Positions 6,831-48,826 of a stretch of DNA of 64,000 nucleotides are shown here, piece after piece. The stretch comes from Caprimulgus europaeus (lineage: Eukaryota > Chordata > Aves > Caprimulgiformes > Caprimulgidae), in NCBI GenBank assembly GCA_907165065.1, contig OU015524.1, positions 39,251,295-39,315,294 of the forward strand. Direction: 5' to 3'. The translations under genes and the position numbers were made by a program. Below the pieces are notes generated by a model. That model saw nothing but the letters and a program-made list of their open reading frames with translations, was not told the DNA's origin and searched no databases. The stretch's first letter is position 1. Each line of letters starts with the position of its first letter.

Positions 6831-7393
6831 AAGTACAAACCATGTGCATCAGACCGCACACACCTTACTGCTAAGTTGGCTGCCAAGTCTCAGGATATTT
6901 TGTAAATCCATACTGCACAGATCAAAGACAGCAAAAGAGGAAGAGACCAATGACTCCCATGTGGCATTCCCACCCTTGCTTGCCCCTCACCAGGAATCTG
7001 AACAAGTACATGGGAAATAACAACACAAAACCACTGTCAATGCAAAGAAAGAGGGAGGCAGGGCGCAAGCTTGAGTGACTGCCACAGAGTGCCCCGGCAA
7101 ACCTGGCAGCTCCCCGGAGACGGAGGTGCCCTGCTCCACAGAAAGCAAGAGGTGGGAATGGGAAAGGGGAACAAGATCAAGAAGGGTAGAACCCAAATAA
7201 ACTCTAAGCCCTCAGTAGTGACAGCGGCAGAGGGGAGCCCAGGTGGCCGGCAGCCCCAGCGGGGAGCCGGCCCGCAGCCCCACCGGCTGTGGGGTGCCGC
7301 TCCCAGGCGGTAGCGGCCCCGCAACGCGGGCAGCGCCCGCGCCGGGCGGCACACGGATTCCCCCGCCCAGCCTGGCCCCGGCCCCTGGCTCAC
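6831..7393 (-). other. KIF26B: KIF26B intron 2, donor-proximal part
   Basis: This is the beginning of intron 2 on the minus strand. The donor is GTGAGC directly after the exon. The first 200 bases belong to the CpG island and are open in the exon frame, so a naive open frame continues to about 7037. The amino acids encoded there do not resemble KIF26B, whose next exon continues with a different sequence. I see nothing else in it. Confidence 0.7.
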
Positions 7394-7795
7394 CTTGCTG
7401 CTGACAGGCCCGGGGATGAGGAGCTTCAGCGCCTGCCTCTTCAGCTCCGCCAGGCGGGCGTTGCAGTGTTCGCACCAGACGCCGCGGTCGGAGCCCGGCG
7501 AGGAGCCGCCGCCGCTGCCGGAGCCCGGCGAGCCGGTGCCGAAGCCCGGCGAGCCGCCCAGCGAGCCGGGGGAGCTGGTGCCGATGCCCGGCGAGGCCGG
7601 TCCCGGCGAGCCGGTGAAGGAGCCCGGCGAGGAGGTGCCGGAGCCGGGGGACGGGGTGCCGGAGGAGCCCAGGGCAGAGCCGGCTCCCTCGGGGGTCGGG
7701 CGGCTCCCCGCCCGGGACTCCTCGTACGCCTTCCGGTACCAGCTCTCGGGGGAGAAGGGGGCGGCGGGCTTGGTGGGGGAGCAGGGGTCGGTCAC
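7394..7795 (-). CDS. KIF26B: KIF26B coding exon 2 (residues 22-155)
   Basis: This is the second coding exon of KIF26B, an atypical kinesin-11 family protein known for weak or absent motor ATPase activity and for roles in Wnt5a-Ror signalling, cell adhesion and kidney development. The exon is 402 nt (134 codons, phase 0 at both ends). It encodes [20 protein letters not shown], then a Ser/Pro/Gly-rich low-complexity tract (about residues 59-121), then a CEHC motif at residues 129-132 followed by a basic amphipathic segment ([14 protein letters not shown]). I recognise this as close to the mammalian N-terminus. The acceptor is a pyrimidine-rich tract ending CTCCAG and the donor is AAG|GTGAGC. 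The CxxC pair is probably half of a zinc site completed by the next exon, which is outside the window. The kinesin motor domain is also outside the window. Confidence 0.95.
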
Positions 7796-8068
7796 CTGGA
7801 GCAGGAGAAGAAGCAGCGGGTCAGGCAGAGAGCCCCAGCGGCGCCGGCAAGTTTCGCTCGGACGCTCCGCGCCCGCGGCGGCCCCCGTGCCTCGCCCGCC
7901 CCCGCAGGGCGCCCAGCGCCGCCGCTCCGCACCGCACGGCACCGCGGAAGTTGAGCGGGGTTGGGCGGCCGAGAAACCGGCGGCGTCGGTAACCGCCGGG
8001 CGAGGGGCGCGGGAGCCCCGGCACGGCGGCGGGCACCGCTCCGAGCCGCCCCTCCGCCAACAACTTAC
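7796..8068 (-). other. KIF26B: KIF26B intron 1 (273 nt, open in frame)
   Basis: This is a short GC-rich intron with a strong GTAAGT donor and a pyrimidine-tract CTCCAG acceptor. Its length is a multiple of three and it has no stop codon in the exon frame, so an open frame runs straight through it from the start codon. The encoded residues do not resemble known KIF26B, whereas joining exon 1 to exon 2 gives the expected KYG-V...CSPTKP junction. It is therefore called an intron. Confidence 0.85.
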
Positions 8069-8131
8069 CCCGTATTTTCTGCTCCGCGCCGTGACCGTGA
8101 TCCTCTCCTTATTTCCAGCCACGGAATTCAT
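8069..8131 (-). CDS. KIF26B: KIF26B coding exon 1 (residues 1-21)
   Basis: This is the first coding exon, 63 nt. It encodes [20 protein letters not shown] plus a glycine and ends in phase 0 at a GTAAGT donor. The [10 protein letters not shown] start is the recognised beginning of KIF26B in mammals. The start codon sits in a near-perfect Kozak context (GCCACCATGA). It lies inside the CpG island and is transcribed leftward. The gene continues beyond the left edge of the window, so only 155 of roughly 2100 residues are present. Confidence 0.95.
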
Positions 8132-8870
8132 GGTGGCTTCGCAGCGCGGCGGGAGAATTTCCTACAGGTTTCCCAGTCCGCATCCGAAGGGAATAGCCGG
8201 TCCCGGGCAGTGCCCCCGCCGAGCGGGCAGGCTGCTCCCTCCGCCGGGCGCAGCCTCCGCTGGGATCGCTCAGCCCCGCGACACCGTCAGTTCTCGGGAA
8301 AACGCTTGGGGCTGGGGGTTTCTCCCGGTCGGTTTTTCCTCATTGTCTTCCCTCGCATTCCCTTACAACCCTCCTTTTCACAGAAAGAGCCACATCCAGA
8401 GTAGGAGCACTCCCCCCAGCAGGCAGCACAGCTCTCCTCCCCAAGCCAGGCGAAGCATCCGAGGGAGCTTTCGGAAGGTGAAAGAGGGAGCGGGAGCCGC
8501 TCTCGCCCCAGCAGAGGCGCCTCCTGCCTCCGCTACAGCCGCAACTTGTTTCCTTCACCAAGGTTTGTCACTGAGTTAAAAGAAATCCTCCAAAAATATC
8601 GGGATCCAGGCTCTGGGAGGAGCCTCGGCGTCCCTTGCAGCCAATATCCTGACAGTTTTGCAAGGGAAGGGAAGACCCGGGCTCCCTGTGCGCTCCCCGG
8701 TCAGCGGCGGAGCTGCAGGGCCGACGGCTGCGAGCAGGCTGCCAGAGCCCCGCCGCAGGTCTGCGCGATGCCTCGGCTGCCAGGAGGGTCCATTTTATTT
8801 TGCAGTATTTCTTGATTGACATCTGTGATTTCCCCCCTCTTCTTGAAAAGGGCGGGCGGGGGGGAACCTT
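8132..8870 (-). promoter_or_regulatory. KIF26B: KIF26B 5' UTR and CpG-island promoter
   Basis: CpG-dense DNA extends from about 7200 through both coding exons to about 8870, as expected for the promoter of a developmental gene. Upstream of the start codon there are GC boxes and a G-run cluster at 8851-8864 that could form a quadruplex. An AT-rich AAAATAAAATGG stretch on the minus strand at about 8790-8801 could act as a TATA-like element. The transcription start cannot be fixed from sequence. Open frames on both strands here are composition effects. Confidence 0.75.
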
Positions 8871-34970: not shown

Positions 34971-35034
34971 TAGTTCACAGAAGCCACCCCTATGCACGCC
35001 CCACTACCAAACCTGGCTGTGCAAACCCAATACA
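34971..35034 (-). mobile_element. ERVK-type LTR 5' end fragment next to splice donor
   Basis: On the minus strand it begins TGTATTGGGTTTGCACAGCC, then a GGTTTGGTAGTGGGG block, then GGGGTGGCTTCTGTGA. This is the same beginning as the LTRs of the array at 43208-48821 (shared TGTATTGGGTTTGC, GGTAGCAGTGGGG and GGGTGGCTTCTGTGA blocks). Only about the first 64 bases are recognisable; the rest is deleted or decayed. It ends 32 bases from the donor of the EFCAB2 exon at 35067-35146. Confidence 0.75.
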
Positions 35035-43202: not shown

Positions 43203-43207
43203 GAGCT
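43203..43207. repeat. target site duplication GAGCT, left copy
   Basis: GAGCT directly precedes the first LTR and recurs directly after the last LTR at 48822-48826. If the LTR is taken to end in canonical TG...CA, the duplication is 5 bp. If one A is assigned to the flank, it reads as AGAGCT (6 bp), the length usual for class II ERVs. Confidence 0.85.
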
Positions 43208-43398
43208 TGTGGTGGGTTGACCCTGGCTAGAGACCGGATGCCCACCAAAGCCCACTCTATCACTCCCCCTCCTCAAATGGGCAGGGGGAGAAAATTATAA
43301 CGAAAAGCTCGTGGGTGGAGATAAGGACAGAGAGAGATCACTCACCAGTTACTGGCACGGGCAAAACAGACTCGACTTGGGGGAAAAAACAAATTTAC

Positions 43399-43404
43399 TT
43401 TATT
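43399..43404 (-). terminator. LTR polyadenylation signal AATAAA (also +1488, +2976, +4464)
   Basis: AATAAA on the minus strand in the R/U5 part of each LTR: 43399-43404, 44887-44892, 46375-46380 and 47863-47868. It is followed downstream on the element strand by a GT-rich stretch (GTTTGTTTTTT-like and GTCTGTTTT). All four are in the sense of EFCAB2 transcription. Confidence 0.8.
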
Positions 43405-43589
43405 ACAAATCAAAATTAGAGGAGAATGAGAAGTAAAACCAAATCTTAAAACACCTCCCCCATCCCTCCCTTCTTCCCGGGCTTAATCTCTTTCCCGATT
43501 TTCCACCTCCTCCCCCCAGCAGCACAGGGGAACAGGGAATGGGGTTAGGGTCAGTTCATCACACGGTGTTTCTGCCGCTGCTTCCTCCT

Positions 43590-43925
43590 CAGGGGGAGGT
43601 CTCCTTCCCCCGCACCAGCGTGGGGTCCCTCTCACGGGAGACAGTCCTCCACCAACTGCTCCAACGTGAGTCCTTCCCATGACCAACAGTTCCTCACGAA
43701 CTGCTTTGGCATGGGTCCATTCCATGGGGTGCAGTCCTTCAGGAAGGGACTGCTCCAGCGCGGGTCCCCCACGGGGTCACAAGTCCTGCCAGCAAACCTG
43801 CTCCGGCGTGGGCTCCTCTCTCCACGGGCTACAGGTCCTGACAGGAACCTGCTCCAGCGCGGGCTTCCTGCGGGGTCACAGCCTCCTTCGGCATCCACCT
43901 GCTCCGGCGTGGGGTCCTCCACGGG
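43590..43925 (-). repeat. minisatellite inside the LTR (45-51 bp units)
   Basis: On the element strand about six to seven degenerate units follow the pattern CCC-A/G-CGC-C/T-GGAGCAG, then a variable part, then GGACTG/CTGT...CCCGTGGA. The unit length is a multiple of three in most cases, so the frame 43632-43922 shows a repeated Pro-Arg-Trp-Ser type protein motif. The same block is present in all four LTRs, shifted by 1488. Unit number is likely to vary between copies elsewhere in the genome. Confidence 0.8.
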
Positions 43926-44356
43926 CTACAGGTGGTCATCTGCACCACCATGGACCTCCAGGGGCTGCAGGGGGACAGCCCGCTTCACCCTGGTCTTTCA
44001 CCAACAGGCTGCAGGGGAATCGCTGCTCCGGCGCCTGGAGCCCATCCTCCCCCCTCCTTCTTCACTGACCTTGGTGTCTGCGGAGTTGTTTCTCTTACAT
44101 CTTCTCACTCCTCTCTCCAGCTGCAAAGTGTGCAGCTTTTTTTTTCTCCCTTCCTTTTTTTTTCTTAATTATGTTATCACAGAGGCGTTACTGATTGGCT
44201 CGGCCTTGGCCAGCGGCGGGTCCCTTCTTGTAGCCGGCTGGCATTGGCTGTGTCGGGTCGGACATGGGGGAAGCTTCTGGCAGCTTCTCTCACAGAAGCC
44301 ACCCCATGTCCCCTCCCCCACTGCTACCAAAAACCTTGCCATGCAAACCCAATACA

Positions 44357-44695
44357 TTCCACCCCTCGCCTCTGTGAATCACATATTTAAGAATCATCAC
44401 TAAAATCCACATTCATCACACAATCTTCACAAACTTCTACTCACATCAACAAAAAAAAGAATTCCCCACACCAAAATCAAAATAACTTCATCACAACACC
44501 AGACAAAGTGGACAATTTACACACATAATCCACCCCTTGTCTCTTCACCACAATTAAATCGATAAAATCCCCCATAATTGTCCTACTCATCACTCTTTAG
44601 CCATGTTCGGTCTGTTTTGCCCGTTAGCTCTCCTCTCTCCGTTAATAACCTTATCTCCAATCTCTCATGCCCCACGTTGGGCGCCAAAAAAAGAC
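44357..44695 (-). mobile_element. internal segment 1: PBS, leader, polypurine tract, no genes
   Basis: This is the whole interior of the element, 339 bp. On the element strand it opens with GTCTTTTT, then the primer binding site TGGCGCCCAACGTGGGGC (44669-44686), the tRNA-Lys class. It closes with the purine tract GAGGCGAGGGGTGGAA (44357-44372) directly before the next LTR. Between them is AT-rich leader-like sequence. A 32-codon open frame beginning Met-Gly (44477-44575) could be the remnant of a gag start; no other coding trace is visible. The segment has what reverse transcription needs in cis and nothing in trans. Confidence 0.88.
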
Positions 44696-45844
44696 TGTGG
44701 TGGGTTGACCCTGGCTAGAGACCGGATGCCCACCAAAGCCCACTCTATCACTCCCCCTCCTCAAATGGGCAGGGGGAGAAAATTATAACGAAAAGCTCGT
44801 GGGTGGAGATAAGGACAGAGAGAGATCACTCACCAGTTACTGGCACGGGCAAAACAGACTCGACTTGGGGGAAAAAACAAATTTACTTTATTACAAATCA
44901 AAATTAGAGGAGAATGAGAAGTAAAACCAAATCTTAAAACACCTCCCCCATCCCTCCCTTCTTCCCGGGCTTAATCTCTTTCCCGATTTTCCACCTCCTC
45001 CCCCCAGCAGCACAGGGGAACAGGGAATGGGGTTAGGGTCAGTTCATCACACGGTGTTTCTGCCGCTGCTTCCTCCTCAGGGGGAGGTCTCCTTCCCCCG
45101 CACCAGCGTGGGGTCCCTCTCACGGGAGACAGTCCTCCACCAACTGCTCCAACGTGAGTCCTTCCCATGACCAACAGTTCCTCACGAACTGCTTTGGCAT
45201 GGGTCCATTCCATGGGGTGCAGTCCTTCAGGAAGGGACTGCTCCAGCGCGGGTCCCCCACGGGGTCACAGGTCCTGCCAGCAAACCTGCTCCGGCGTGGG
45301 CTCCTCTCTCCACGGGCTACAGGTCCTGACAGGAACCTGCTCCAGCGCGGGCTTCCTGCGGGGTCACAGCCTCCTTCGGCATCCACCTGCTCCGGCGTGG
45401 GGTCCTCCACGGGCTACAGGTGGTCATCTGCACCACCATGGACCTCCAGGGGCTGCAGGGGGACAGCCCGCTTCACCCTGGTCTTTCACCAACAGGCTGC
45501 AGGGGAATCGCTGCTCCGGCGCCTGGAGCCCATCCTCCCCCCTCCTTCTTCACTGACCTTGGTGTCTGCGGAGTTGTTTCTCTTACATCTTCTCACTCCT
45601 CTCTCCAGCTGCAAAGTGTGCAGCTTTTTTTTTCTCCCTTCCTTTTTTTTTCTTAATTATGTTATCACAGAGGCGTTACTGATTGGCTCGGCCTTGGCCA
45701 GCGGCGGGTCCCTTCTTGTAGCCGGCTGGCATTGGCTGTGTCGGGTCGGACATGGGGGAAGCTTCTGGCAGCTTCTCTCACAGAAGCCACCCCATGTCCC
45801 CTCCCCCACTGCTACCAAAAACCTTGCCATGCAAACCCAATACA
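44696..45844 (-). mobile_element. LTR copy 2
   Basis: 1149 bp, identical to copy 1 as far as I compared, except G instead of A at 45270. It is bounded by internal segments on both sides, so it serves as the 3' LTR of one unit and the 5' LTR of the next. Confidence 0.93.
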
Positions 45845-46183
45845 TTCCACCCCTCGCCTCTGTGAATCACATATTTAAGAATCATCACTAAAATCCACAT
45901 TCATCACACAATCTTCACAAACTTCTACTCACATCAACAAAAAAAAGAATTCCCCACACCAAAATCAAAATAACTTCATCACAACACCAGACAAAGTGGA
46001 CAATTTACACACATAATCCACCCCTTGTCTCTTCACCACAATTAAATCGATAAAATCCCCCATAATTGTCCTACTCATCACTCTTTAGCCATGTTCGGTC
46101 TGTTTTGCCCGTTAGCTCTCCTCTCTCCGTTAATAACCTTATCTCCAATCTCTCATGCCCCACGTTGGGCGCCAAAAAAAGAC
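45845..46183 (-). mobile_element. internal segment 2
   Basis: 339 bp, same sequence as segment 1. Primer binding site at 46157-46174 and polypurine tract at 45845-45860. The 32-codon open frame is repeated at 45965-46063. Confidence 0.88.
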
Positions 46184-47332
46184 TGTGGTGGGTTGACCCT
46201 GGCTAGAGACCGGATGCCCACCAAAGCCCACTCTATCACTCCCCCTCCTCAAATGGGCAGGGGGAGAAAATTATAACGAAAAGCTCGTGGGTGGAGATAA
46301 GGACAGAGAGAGATCACTCACCAGTTACTGGCACGGGCAAAACAGACTCGACTTGGGGGAAAAAACAAATTTACTTTATTACAAATCAAAATTAGAGGAG
46401 AATGAGAAGTAAAACCAAATCTTAAAACACCTCCCCCATCCCTCCCTTCTTCCCGGGCTTAATCTCTTTCCCGATTTTCCACCTCCTCCCCCCAGCAGCA
46501 CAGGGGAACAGGGAATGGGGTTAGGGTCAGTTCATCACACGGTGTTTCTGCCGCTGCTTCCTCCTCAGGGGGAGGTCTCCTTCCCCCGCACCAGCGTGGG
46601 GTCCCTCTCACGGGAGACAGTCCTCCACCAACTGCTCCAACGTGAGTCCTTCCCATGACCAACAGTTCCTCACGAACTGCTTTGGCATGGGTCCATTCCA
46701 TGGGGTGCAGTCCTTCAGGAAGGGACTGCTCCAGCGCGGGTCCCCCACGGGGTCACAAGTCCTGCCAGCAAACCTGCTCCGGCGTGGGCTCCTCTCTCCA
46801 CGGGCTACAGGTCCTGACAGGAACCTGCTCCAGCGCGGGCTTCCTGCGGGGTCACAGCCTCCTTCGGCATCCACCTGCTCCGGCGTGGGGTCCTCCACGG
46901 GCTACAGGTGGTCATCTGCACCACCATGGACCTCCAGGGGCTGCAGGGGGACAGCCCGCTTCACCCTGGTCTTTCACCAACAGGCTGCAGGGGAATCGCT
47001 GCTCCGGCGCCTGGAGCCCATCCTCCCCCCTCCTTCTTCACTGACCTTGGTGTCTGCGGAGTTGTTTCTCTTACATCTTCTCACTCCTCTCTCCAGCTGC
47101 AAAGTGTGCAGCTTTTTTTTTCTCCCTTCCTTTTTTTTTCTTAATTATGTTATCACAGAGGCGTTACTGATTGGCTCGGCCTTGGCCAGCGGCGGGTCCC
47201 TTCTTGTAGCCGGCTGGCATTGGCTGTGTCGGGTCGGACATGGGGGAAGCTTCTGGCAGCTTCTCTCACAGAAGCCACCCCATGTCCCCTCCCCCACTGC
47301 TACCAAAAACCTTGCCATGCAAACCCAATACA
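46184..47332 (-). mobile_element. LTR copy 3
   Basis: 1149 bp, indistinguishable from copy 1 in what I compared. It has A at the site where copy 2 has G. Confidence 0.93.
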
Positions 47333-47671
47333 TTCCACCCCTCGCCTCTGTGAATCACATATTTAAGAATCATCACTAAAATCCACATTCATCACACAAT
47401 CTTCACAAACTTCTACTCACATCAACAAAAAAAAGAATTCCCCACACCAAAATCAAAATAACTTCATCACAACACCAGACAAAGTGGACAATTTACACAC
47501 ATAATCCACCCCTTGTCTCTTCACCACAATTAAATCGATAAAATCCCCCATAATTGTCCTACTCATCACTCTTTAGCCATGTTCGGTCTGTTTTGCCCGT
47601 TAGCTCTCCTCTCTCCGTTAATAACCTTATCTCCAATCTCTCATGCCCCACGTTGGGCGCCAAAAAAAGAC
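47333..47671 (-). mobile_element. internal segment 3
   Basis: 339 bp, same sequence as the other two. Primer binding site at 47645-47662 and polypurine tract at 47333-47348. The 32-codon open frame is repeated at 47453-47551. Confidence 0.88.
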
Positions 47672-48821
47672 TGTGGTGGGTTGACCCTGGCTAGAGACCG
47701 GATGCCCACCAAAGCCCACTCTATCACTCCCCCTCCTCAAATGGGCAGGGGGAGAAAATTATAACGAAAAGCTCGTGGGTGGAGATAAGGACAGAGAGAG
47801 ATCACTCACCAGTTACTGGCACGGGCAAAACAGACTCGACTTGGGGGAAAAAACAAATTTACTTTATTACAAATCAAAATTAGAGGAGAATGAGAAGTAA
47901 AACCAAATCTTAAAACACCTCCCCCATCCCTCCCTTCTTCCCGGGCTTAATCTCTTTCCCGATTTTCCACCTCCTCCCCCCAGCAGCACAGGGGAACAGG
48001 GAATGGGGTTAGGGTCAGTTCATCACACGGTGTTTCTGCCGCTGCTTCCTCCTCAGGGGGAGGTCTCCTTCCCCCGCACCAGCGTGGGGTCCCTCTCACG
48101 GGAGACAGTCCTCCACCAACTGCTCCAACGTGAGTCCTTCCCATGACCAACAGTTCCTCACGAACTGCTTTGGCATGGGTCCATTCCATGGGGTGCAGTC
48201 CTTCAGGAAGGGACTGCTCCAGCGCGGGTCCCCCACGGGGTCACAAGTCCTGCCAGCAAACCTGCTCCGGCGTGGGCTCCTCTCTCCACGGGCTACAGGT
48301 CCTGACAGGAACCTGCTCCAGCGCGGGCTTCCTGCGGGGTCACAGCCTCCTTCGGCATCCACCTGCTCCGGCGTGGGGTCCTCCACGGGCTACAGGTGGT
48401 CATCTGCACCACCATGGACCTCCAGGGGCTGCAGGGGGACAGCCCGCTTCACCCTGGTCTTTCACCAACAGGCTGCAGGGGAATCGCTGCTCCGGCGCCT
48501 GGAGCCCATCCTCCCCCCTCCTTCTTCACTGACCTTGGTGTCTGCGGAGTTGTTTCTCTTACATCTTCTCACTCCTCTCTCCAGCTGCAAAGTGTGCAGC
48601 TTTTTTTTTCTCCCTTCCTTTTTTTTTTCTTAATTATGTTATCACAGAGGCGTTACTGATTGGCTCGGCCTTGGCCAGCGGCGGGTCCCTTCTTGTAGCC
48701 GGCTGGCATTGGCTGTGTCGGGTCGGACATGGGGGAAGCTTCTGGCAGCTTCTCTCACAGAAGCCACCCCATGTCCCCTCCCCCACTGCTACCAAAAACC
48801 TTGCCATGCAAACCCAATACA
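47672..48821 (-). mobile_element. LTR copy 4 (5'-most on element strand)
   Basis: 1150 bp. It has one extra T in the T-run near 48620 (an A-run on the element strand), which shortens the antisense open frame compared with the other copies. Its outer end (TGTATTGGG on the element strand) meets unique DNA beginning GAGCT, which defines the true LTR start. This is the copy expected to drive element transcription, leftward. Confidence 0.93.
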
Positions 48822-48826
48822 GAGCT
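48822..48826. repeat. target site duplication GAGCT, right copy
   Basis: Matches 43203-43207 exactly. The presence of one matching pair only at the outer borders shows that the array occupies one insertion site. Confidence 0.85.

Follow-up and report, generated by a model that had tools for sequence, protein, structure and literature searches.

Structure of the array and its surroundings

The window analysed in this study is a stretch of 64,000 nt from Caprimulgus europaeus (GCA_907165065.1, contig OU015524.1, positions 39,251,295-39,315,294 of the forward strand) that contains no N bases. Positions 43208-48821 of the window are occupied by one unbroken tandem array on the minus strand, in which LTRs of 1149 bp alternate with interiors of 339 bp in the order LTR-int-LTR-int-LTR-int-LTR at a period of 1488 bp. 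When the window was compared with itself, one continuous match was found at each of the offsets 1488, 2976 and 4464, and a repeat search returned four copies at a spacing of 1488, both in agreement with the four-LTR array of exact 1488-bp period described in the initial annotation of this DNA. The longest self-matches in the window outside the array were 147-176 bp at 71-90% identity (E up to 1e-10), and because these are far shorter and more diverged, the array cannot be considered a chance similarity.

In the orientation of the element, the array begins with LTR4 (47672-48821), its 5' LTR, which is 1150 bp long and has an extra T in a T-run at 48619. This is followed by interior 3 (47333-47671), LTR3 (46184-47332), interior 2 (45845-46183), LTR2 (44696-45844), interior 1 (44357-44695) and finally LTR1 (43208-44356), the 3' LTR. 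All four LTRs start with TGT and end with ACA, and so have the TG...CA form of terminal direct repeats. The three 339-bp interiors are mutually identical, LTR1 is identical to LTR3 by sequence comparison, LTR1 and LTR4 are separated by one indel, and identity among the array LTRs is 99.9-100% overall. Two differences between units had been noticed earlier, and exactly two variable sites are present, a G for A at 45270 in LTR2 that is absent from the other three LTRs, and the T-run at 48619 in LTR4 (10 T vs 9).

The array is flanked by a direct 5-bp repeat, GAGCT, at 43203-43207 and 48822-48826, which does not extend to a 6-bp match. GAGCT is absent from the inner LTR/interior junctions, so the earlier observation that the duplication is confined to the outer borders is correct. 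Alternating LTRs and interiors, an LTR at both ends and one outer duplication together make this a tandem LTR array. Each LTR also contains an internal diverged repeat of about 115 bp, the copies of which are 76-77% identical (43721-43933 and the same place in each of the other LTRs). Elsewhere in the window, positions 34975-35034 are 78% identical to one end of the array LTR and are perhaps an old relative.

Rfam (gathering threshold) and tRNA scans of the window were empty, and a Pfam search with 10 translated stretches found one family above cut-off, KIF26A/B (E 7.1e-12). The match is to the beginning of its tri-helical domain and is contained in a minus-strand ORF at 7040-8161, which lies in a GC-rich stretch. 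The array lies about 35 kb from this ORF. Fragments elsewhere in the window were read as probable CR1 from translations and repeats; those included in the Pfam search did not match any family above its cut-off.

Signals and coding capacity of the element

Each LTR has an AATAAA signal in the minus-strand direction (43399-43404 in LTR1), so that the array carries four polyadenylation signals and would hold four copies of any promoter present in the LTR. All three interiors contain an 18-nt primer-binding site (44669-44686, 46157-46174 and 47645-47662) that is set nine bases inward from the preceding LTR, and this 18-base site is the same as the tRNA-Lys1,2 site string printed in PMC8775094. The opposite end of the interior, which adjoins the following LTR (LTR1 in the case of interior 1), is an interrupted purine-rich stretch, a candidate polypurine tract, whose last 25 bases are identical in all seven two-LTR relatives described below. 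No gene-sized ORF lies wholly within the 339-bp interior, the longest being 38 aa. This suggests that the interior carries the cis needs of reverse transcription and little else.

A 245-aa ORF that spans LTR and interior was considered as coding sequence of the element and rejected, as it runs antisense to the element. A protein search with this ORF gave 367 matches, and among the best 120 of these 367 the nine named rows came from three birds, Morphnus guianensis, Accipiter gentilis and Mycteria americana, while the remaining 111 had no name. These matches, for which the query was aligned with 17 of them, were used only to place the family in birds. Among the same best 120 of 367 there were 11 clusters with at least two members on a single contig (two clusters with three), for example P0012, P0097, P0021 and P0089, and two of the 11 were found on short contigs, 2.8 and 3.8 kb in length. 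Such clusters could represent additional mini elements or arrays in the genomes of other birds, or merely variant gene calls, as one is a named isoform.

The leader (44601-44665), near the primer site, is complementary to part of the LTR (43308-43377) in two blocks of 11 and 15 nt that occur in matching order. Among 1000 shuffled interiors, a 15-base complementarity arose once and the observed number of 11-base matches never, and the LTR-leader RNA is predicted to fold more favourably than shuffled sequence (100 shuffles, z = -4.32). The exact 15-nt complementarity is kept in one of the seven relatives, and in the other six the leader retains the first 12 of these 15 bases. Judged from sequence and predicted folding, the complementarity could possibly represent a retroviral leader fold.

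A dispersed family of mini-ERVs

In the assembly used for the family search, the window lies at G000:C2:39251295-39315294. A search of this same genome scored 40 of 4269 candidates; the 54 matches listed were sorted into 40 loci, and the 39 loci other than the window array were all retrieved. Within this scored set the loci consist of the window array, seven two-LTR elements, one truncated element (C2:66881907), one cluster on C36 and 30 single LTRs. The seven two-LTR elements have interiors of 339-350 bp that are 92-99.7% identical to the window interior, and all seven have the Lys1,2-type primer site. Six of the seven have an exact 5-bp duplication. Their 1-kb flanks show no similarity at E 1e-5 to each other or to the window locus. 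Because the same short interior recurs in seven dispersed two-LTR elements, it is not the result of a local deletion. The identical mini-interiors pointed out in the initial annotation are indeed three identical copies, but they are better described as the interior that members of a dispersed mini-ERV family normally have. The LTR pairs within the seven elements differ by substitutions numbering 2, 0, 0, 3, 0, 0 and 0, and two of the elements additionally have a single indel each. The array element is therefore a member of a young, dispersed mini-ERV family, which is presumably helper-dependent.

Exact duplications of at least 5 bp directly at both ends were found for 28 of the 30 single LTRs (19/20 and 9/10 in the two batches), although one of these 28 duplications is ambiguous because it lies in an A run. 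As these 28 keep an exact duplication, the single LTRs are taken to be solo LTRs. In chicken, solo LTRs of ERVs are described as arising when the two LTRs of a single element recombine with each other (PMC2329609). The abundance of solo LTRs thus indicates that LTR-LTR recombination is common in this mini-ERV family.

Two loci in the scored set have unusual structures. The element L021 (G000:C12:5147386-5152041) is a two-LTR mini element with identical LTRs and no target-site duplication, and it may be a recombinant between two elements. The C36 cluster, L024 (G000:C36:21197000-21206000), has three family LTRs and part of a fourth within 4.4 kb. It was considered as a second array and rejected, since other DNA, read as CR1-like, lies between its first three LTRs, and these are 86, 94 and 98% identical to the window LTR. 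The middle LTR of this cluster has its own duplication, TGTTT, and the third belongs to a copy that also has an interior and a second LTR; this second LTR is truncated, and a possible 5-bp duplication is found close to its end. No other clean multi-LTR array, including a three-LTR intermediate, was present among the 40 of 4269 candidates scored. In the viral contigs, one exact pattern had no match, and an 18-nt LTR end was found at eight loci, none of which matches the LTR or interior over more than 19 nt. Scans guided by protein sequence, in both viral and genome contigs, did not reveal a relative either.

Age of the array

The array looks recently formed, since its 5.6 kb contain a single substitution and a single change in the T-run. 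The one substitution in 5613 bp of units corresponds to about 36-119 thousand years, with upper 95% limits of 198-662 thousand years, at assumed rates of 1.5-5 x 10^-9 substitutions per site per year. Gene conversion would make the array look younger than it really is. The LTR has a CpG observed/expected ratio of 0.43 and the interior one of 0.78, compared with 0.17 and 0.10 in the 5-kb flanks, and because CpG content is above that of the flanks, the youth of the array is supported. The near-zero divergence of the units had been interpreted as either very recent formation or ongoing homogenisation. Recent formation fits these data, whereas homogenisation need not be invoked because low LTR divergence is normal in this family, as the 0-3 substitutions within its seven two-LTR members demonstrate.

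Origin of the array

The data presented here suggest that the array probably began as a single mini-ERV insertion that later went through at least two rounds of unequal LTR-LTR crossover. One gene-less mini-ERV (LTR-339 bp-LTR), with its DNA made by reverse transcriptase and integrase that helper elements would have supplied in trans, would have integrated a single time, with duplication of 5 bp of the host sequence. A single insertion is indicated because the duplication is found at the outside only. Recombination would have followed between LTRs that were misaligned on sister or homologous chromosomes, and such an event would have two reciprocal products, one chromosome left with a solo LTR and the other lengthened by one 1488-bp unit. 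From a single initial unit, the first round of crossover gives a maximum of two units and the second gives three or four, so at least two rounds are needed because the three units and four LTRs seen here exceed the one-round maximum. The exact 1488-bp period, the alternating order and the one outer duplication are the traces that unequal LTR-LTR crossover is expected to leave. This proposal also fits the rest of the family, with the array representing gain, and the frequent solo LTRs loss, in one and the same process. The initial annotation had named unequal LTR-LTR recombination after insertion as one of two possible mechanisms, and the outer-only duplication and the abundant solo LTRs are in its favour.

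The main competitor, which is considered unlikely, is that the units arrived together: multi-unit DNA, from read-through or circle-derived transcripts or from template switching, would have integrated once, or a one-LTR circle would have lengthened a copy already in place by recombining with it. Template switching has been proposed for Cassandra (PMC7215508), and tandem transcripts derived from circles have been considered in the case of plant LTR elements (PMC11899658). The outer-only duplication and the near-identical units fit such an arrival equally well, the short unit would keep a concatemer packageable, and a single integration event would suffice, whereas crossover requires at least two rounds. 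On the other hand, insertion of a ready-made concatemer has to treat the LTR2 G as a later mutation or a reverse-transcription error, and among the 40 of 4269 candidates scored, the other 39 loci include seven two-LTR elements and no clean multi-LTR array while solo LTRs are common. The variable sites themselves do not discriminate between the two, since both are single-unit changes without any mark of a crossover. Of 34 other LTRs compared, one also has the LTR2 G, and the array shows no base that is absent from all of them. The T-run ranges from 8 to 17 across the family once 20 single LTRs are added, and the closest LTR (L026) has 9; the idea that the LTR4 run is the ancestral state (T in 14/14 LTRs aligned) was dropped because the run is so variable in the family. 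The earlier note had left recombination and concatemer insertion side by side; recombination now leads, but the choice is not settled by these two sites. A bolder version, in which this bird mini-ERV has a unit short enough to be copied and integrated as concatemers, such that new insertions arrive as tandem arrays and seed satellite DNA, is regarded as improbable.

It is also conceivable, though quite improbable, that the assembler expanded a two- or three-LTR element to four LTRs. Near-identical tandem repeats are a classic site of assembly errors and the T-run difference affects a homopolymer, but the G at 45270 sets one unit apart, the window has no N, and the contiguity of the assembly, with 1.18 Gb in only 121 sequences (longest seen 126 Mb), suggests long reads able to span 5.6 kb. 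Several independent or nested insertions side by side are scarcely credible. The C36 cluster, with its LTRs crowded into 4.4 kb, indicates that family members can come to lie close together; however, the inner junctions of the window array have neither host DNA nor a duplication, which already contradicts this reading. Additionally, the window LTRs are 99.9-100% identical to each other compared with the 86-98% identity of the C36 LTRs to them, and the first two C36 spacers are other DNA, read as CR1-like.

If the array did form by one insertion and subsequent crossover, it would be a by-product without a function of its own, and its copy number is likely to be unstable. Individual birds may differ in length at this locus. 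The array does not change the known mechanism. What it offers is a clean and roughly dated vertebrate tandem LTR array in a genome where solo LTRs of the same family are numerous and intact two-LTR copies occur as well, which means that the gain and loss sides of LTR-LTR recombination could be measured within one family.

Comparison with known systems

The tRNA-Lys1,2 primer type is more usual in ERVK/betaretrovirus-like elements. By the convention used for avian ERVs, a 5-bp duplication denotes ERVL/ERV3 and a 6-bp duplication ERVK/ERV2 (PMC6523648). The window element resembles ERVL/ERV3 in its TG...CA LTRs and 5-bp duplication, but differs in its primer site, which is of the tRNA-Lys1,2 type (PMC6523648; PMC8775094). 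A 5-bp duplication is seen at the window array and in six of seven two-LTR relatives, and 28 of 30 single LTRs have one of at least 5 bp. The class is left undecided between ERVL and ERVK, as the duplication points to ERVL/ERV3, the primer site recalls ERVK-like elements and the element has no pol.

TRIM elements have LTRs of roughly 100-250 bp. Tandemly arrayed TRIMs in plants include forms with three LTRs and two interiors and forms with five LTRs and four interiors, for which a target-site duplication is listed (PMC4717578). The likeness to the window array is in the short interiors alternating with LTRs; however, the plant arrays shown in that source measure less than 1 kb in total, whereas the LTRs of this retrovirus-like element in a bird host are 1149 bp on their own (PMC4717578). 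The interior is non-coding as in TRIMs (longest ORF 38 aa), but the very small size is lacking, as the LTR is 1149 bp and the two-LTR form about 2.6 kb. The array therefore behaves like a tandemly arrayed TRIM, yet is too large for the TRIM class.

HERV-K108 is a coding ERV. In humans it is described with two interiors, three LTRs and the original duplication kept, and this is explained by recombination between its two LTRs (PMC3625200). It shares with the window array its status as a vertebrate ERV, the shared inner LTR and the retained duplication, but it has two intact interiors and three LTRs where the window array has 339-bp non-coding interiors and four LTRs (PMC3625200). Tandem LTR-retrotransposons reported from rice and other plants have alternating LTRs and interiors with an LTR at both ends, and perfect 5-nt outer duplications are given for 10 of 28 curated examples in rice (PMC11899658). 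They are like the window array in this alternation, in being bounded by LTRs and, in some cases, in the 5-nt outer duplication, but the plant elements described there are mostly Gypsy with coding domains, unlike the window element (PMC11899658). The kangaroo arrays cited in the same source are centromeric (PMC11899658). No description of a tandem LTR array in a bird was found in the open-access literature searched (titles and abstract openings). Tandem LTR arrays are already known in plants, kangaroos and human HERV-K108, and the window array adds the case of a bird mini-ERV.
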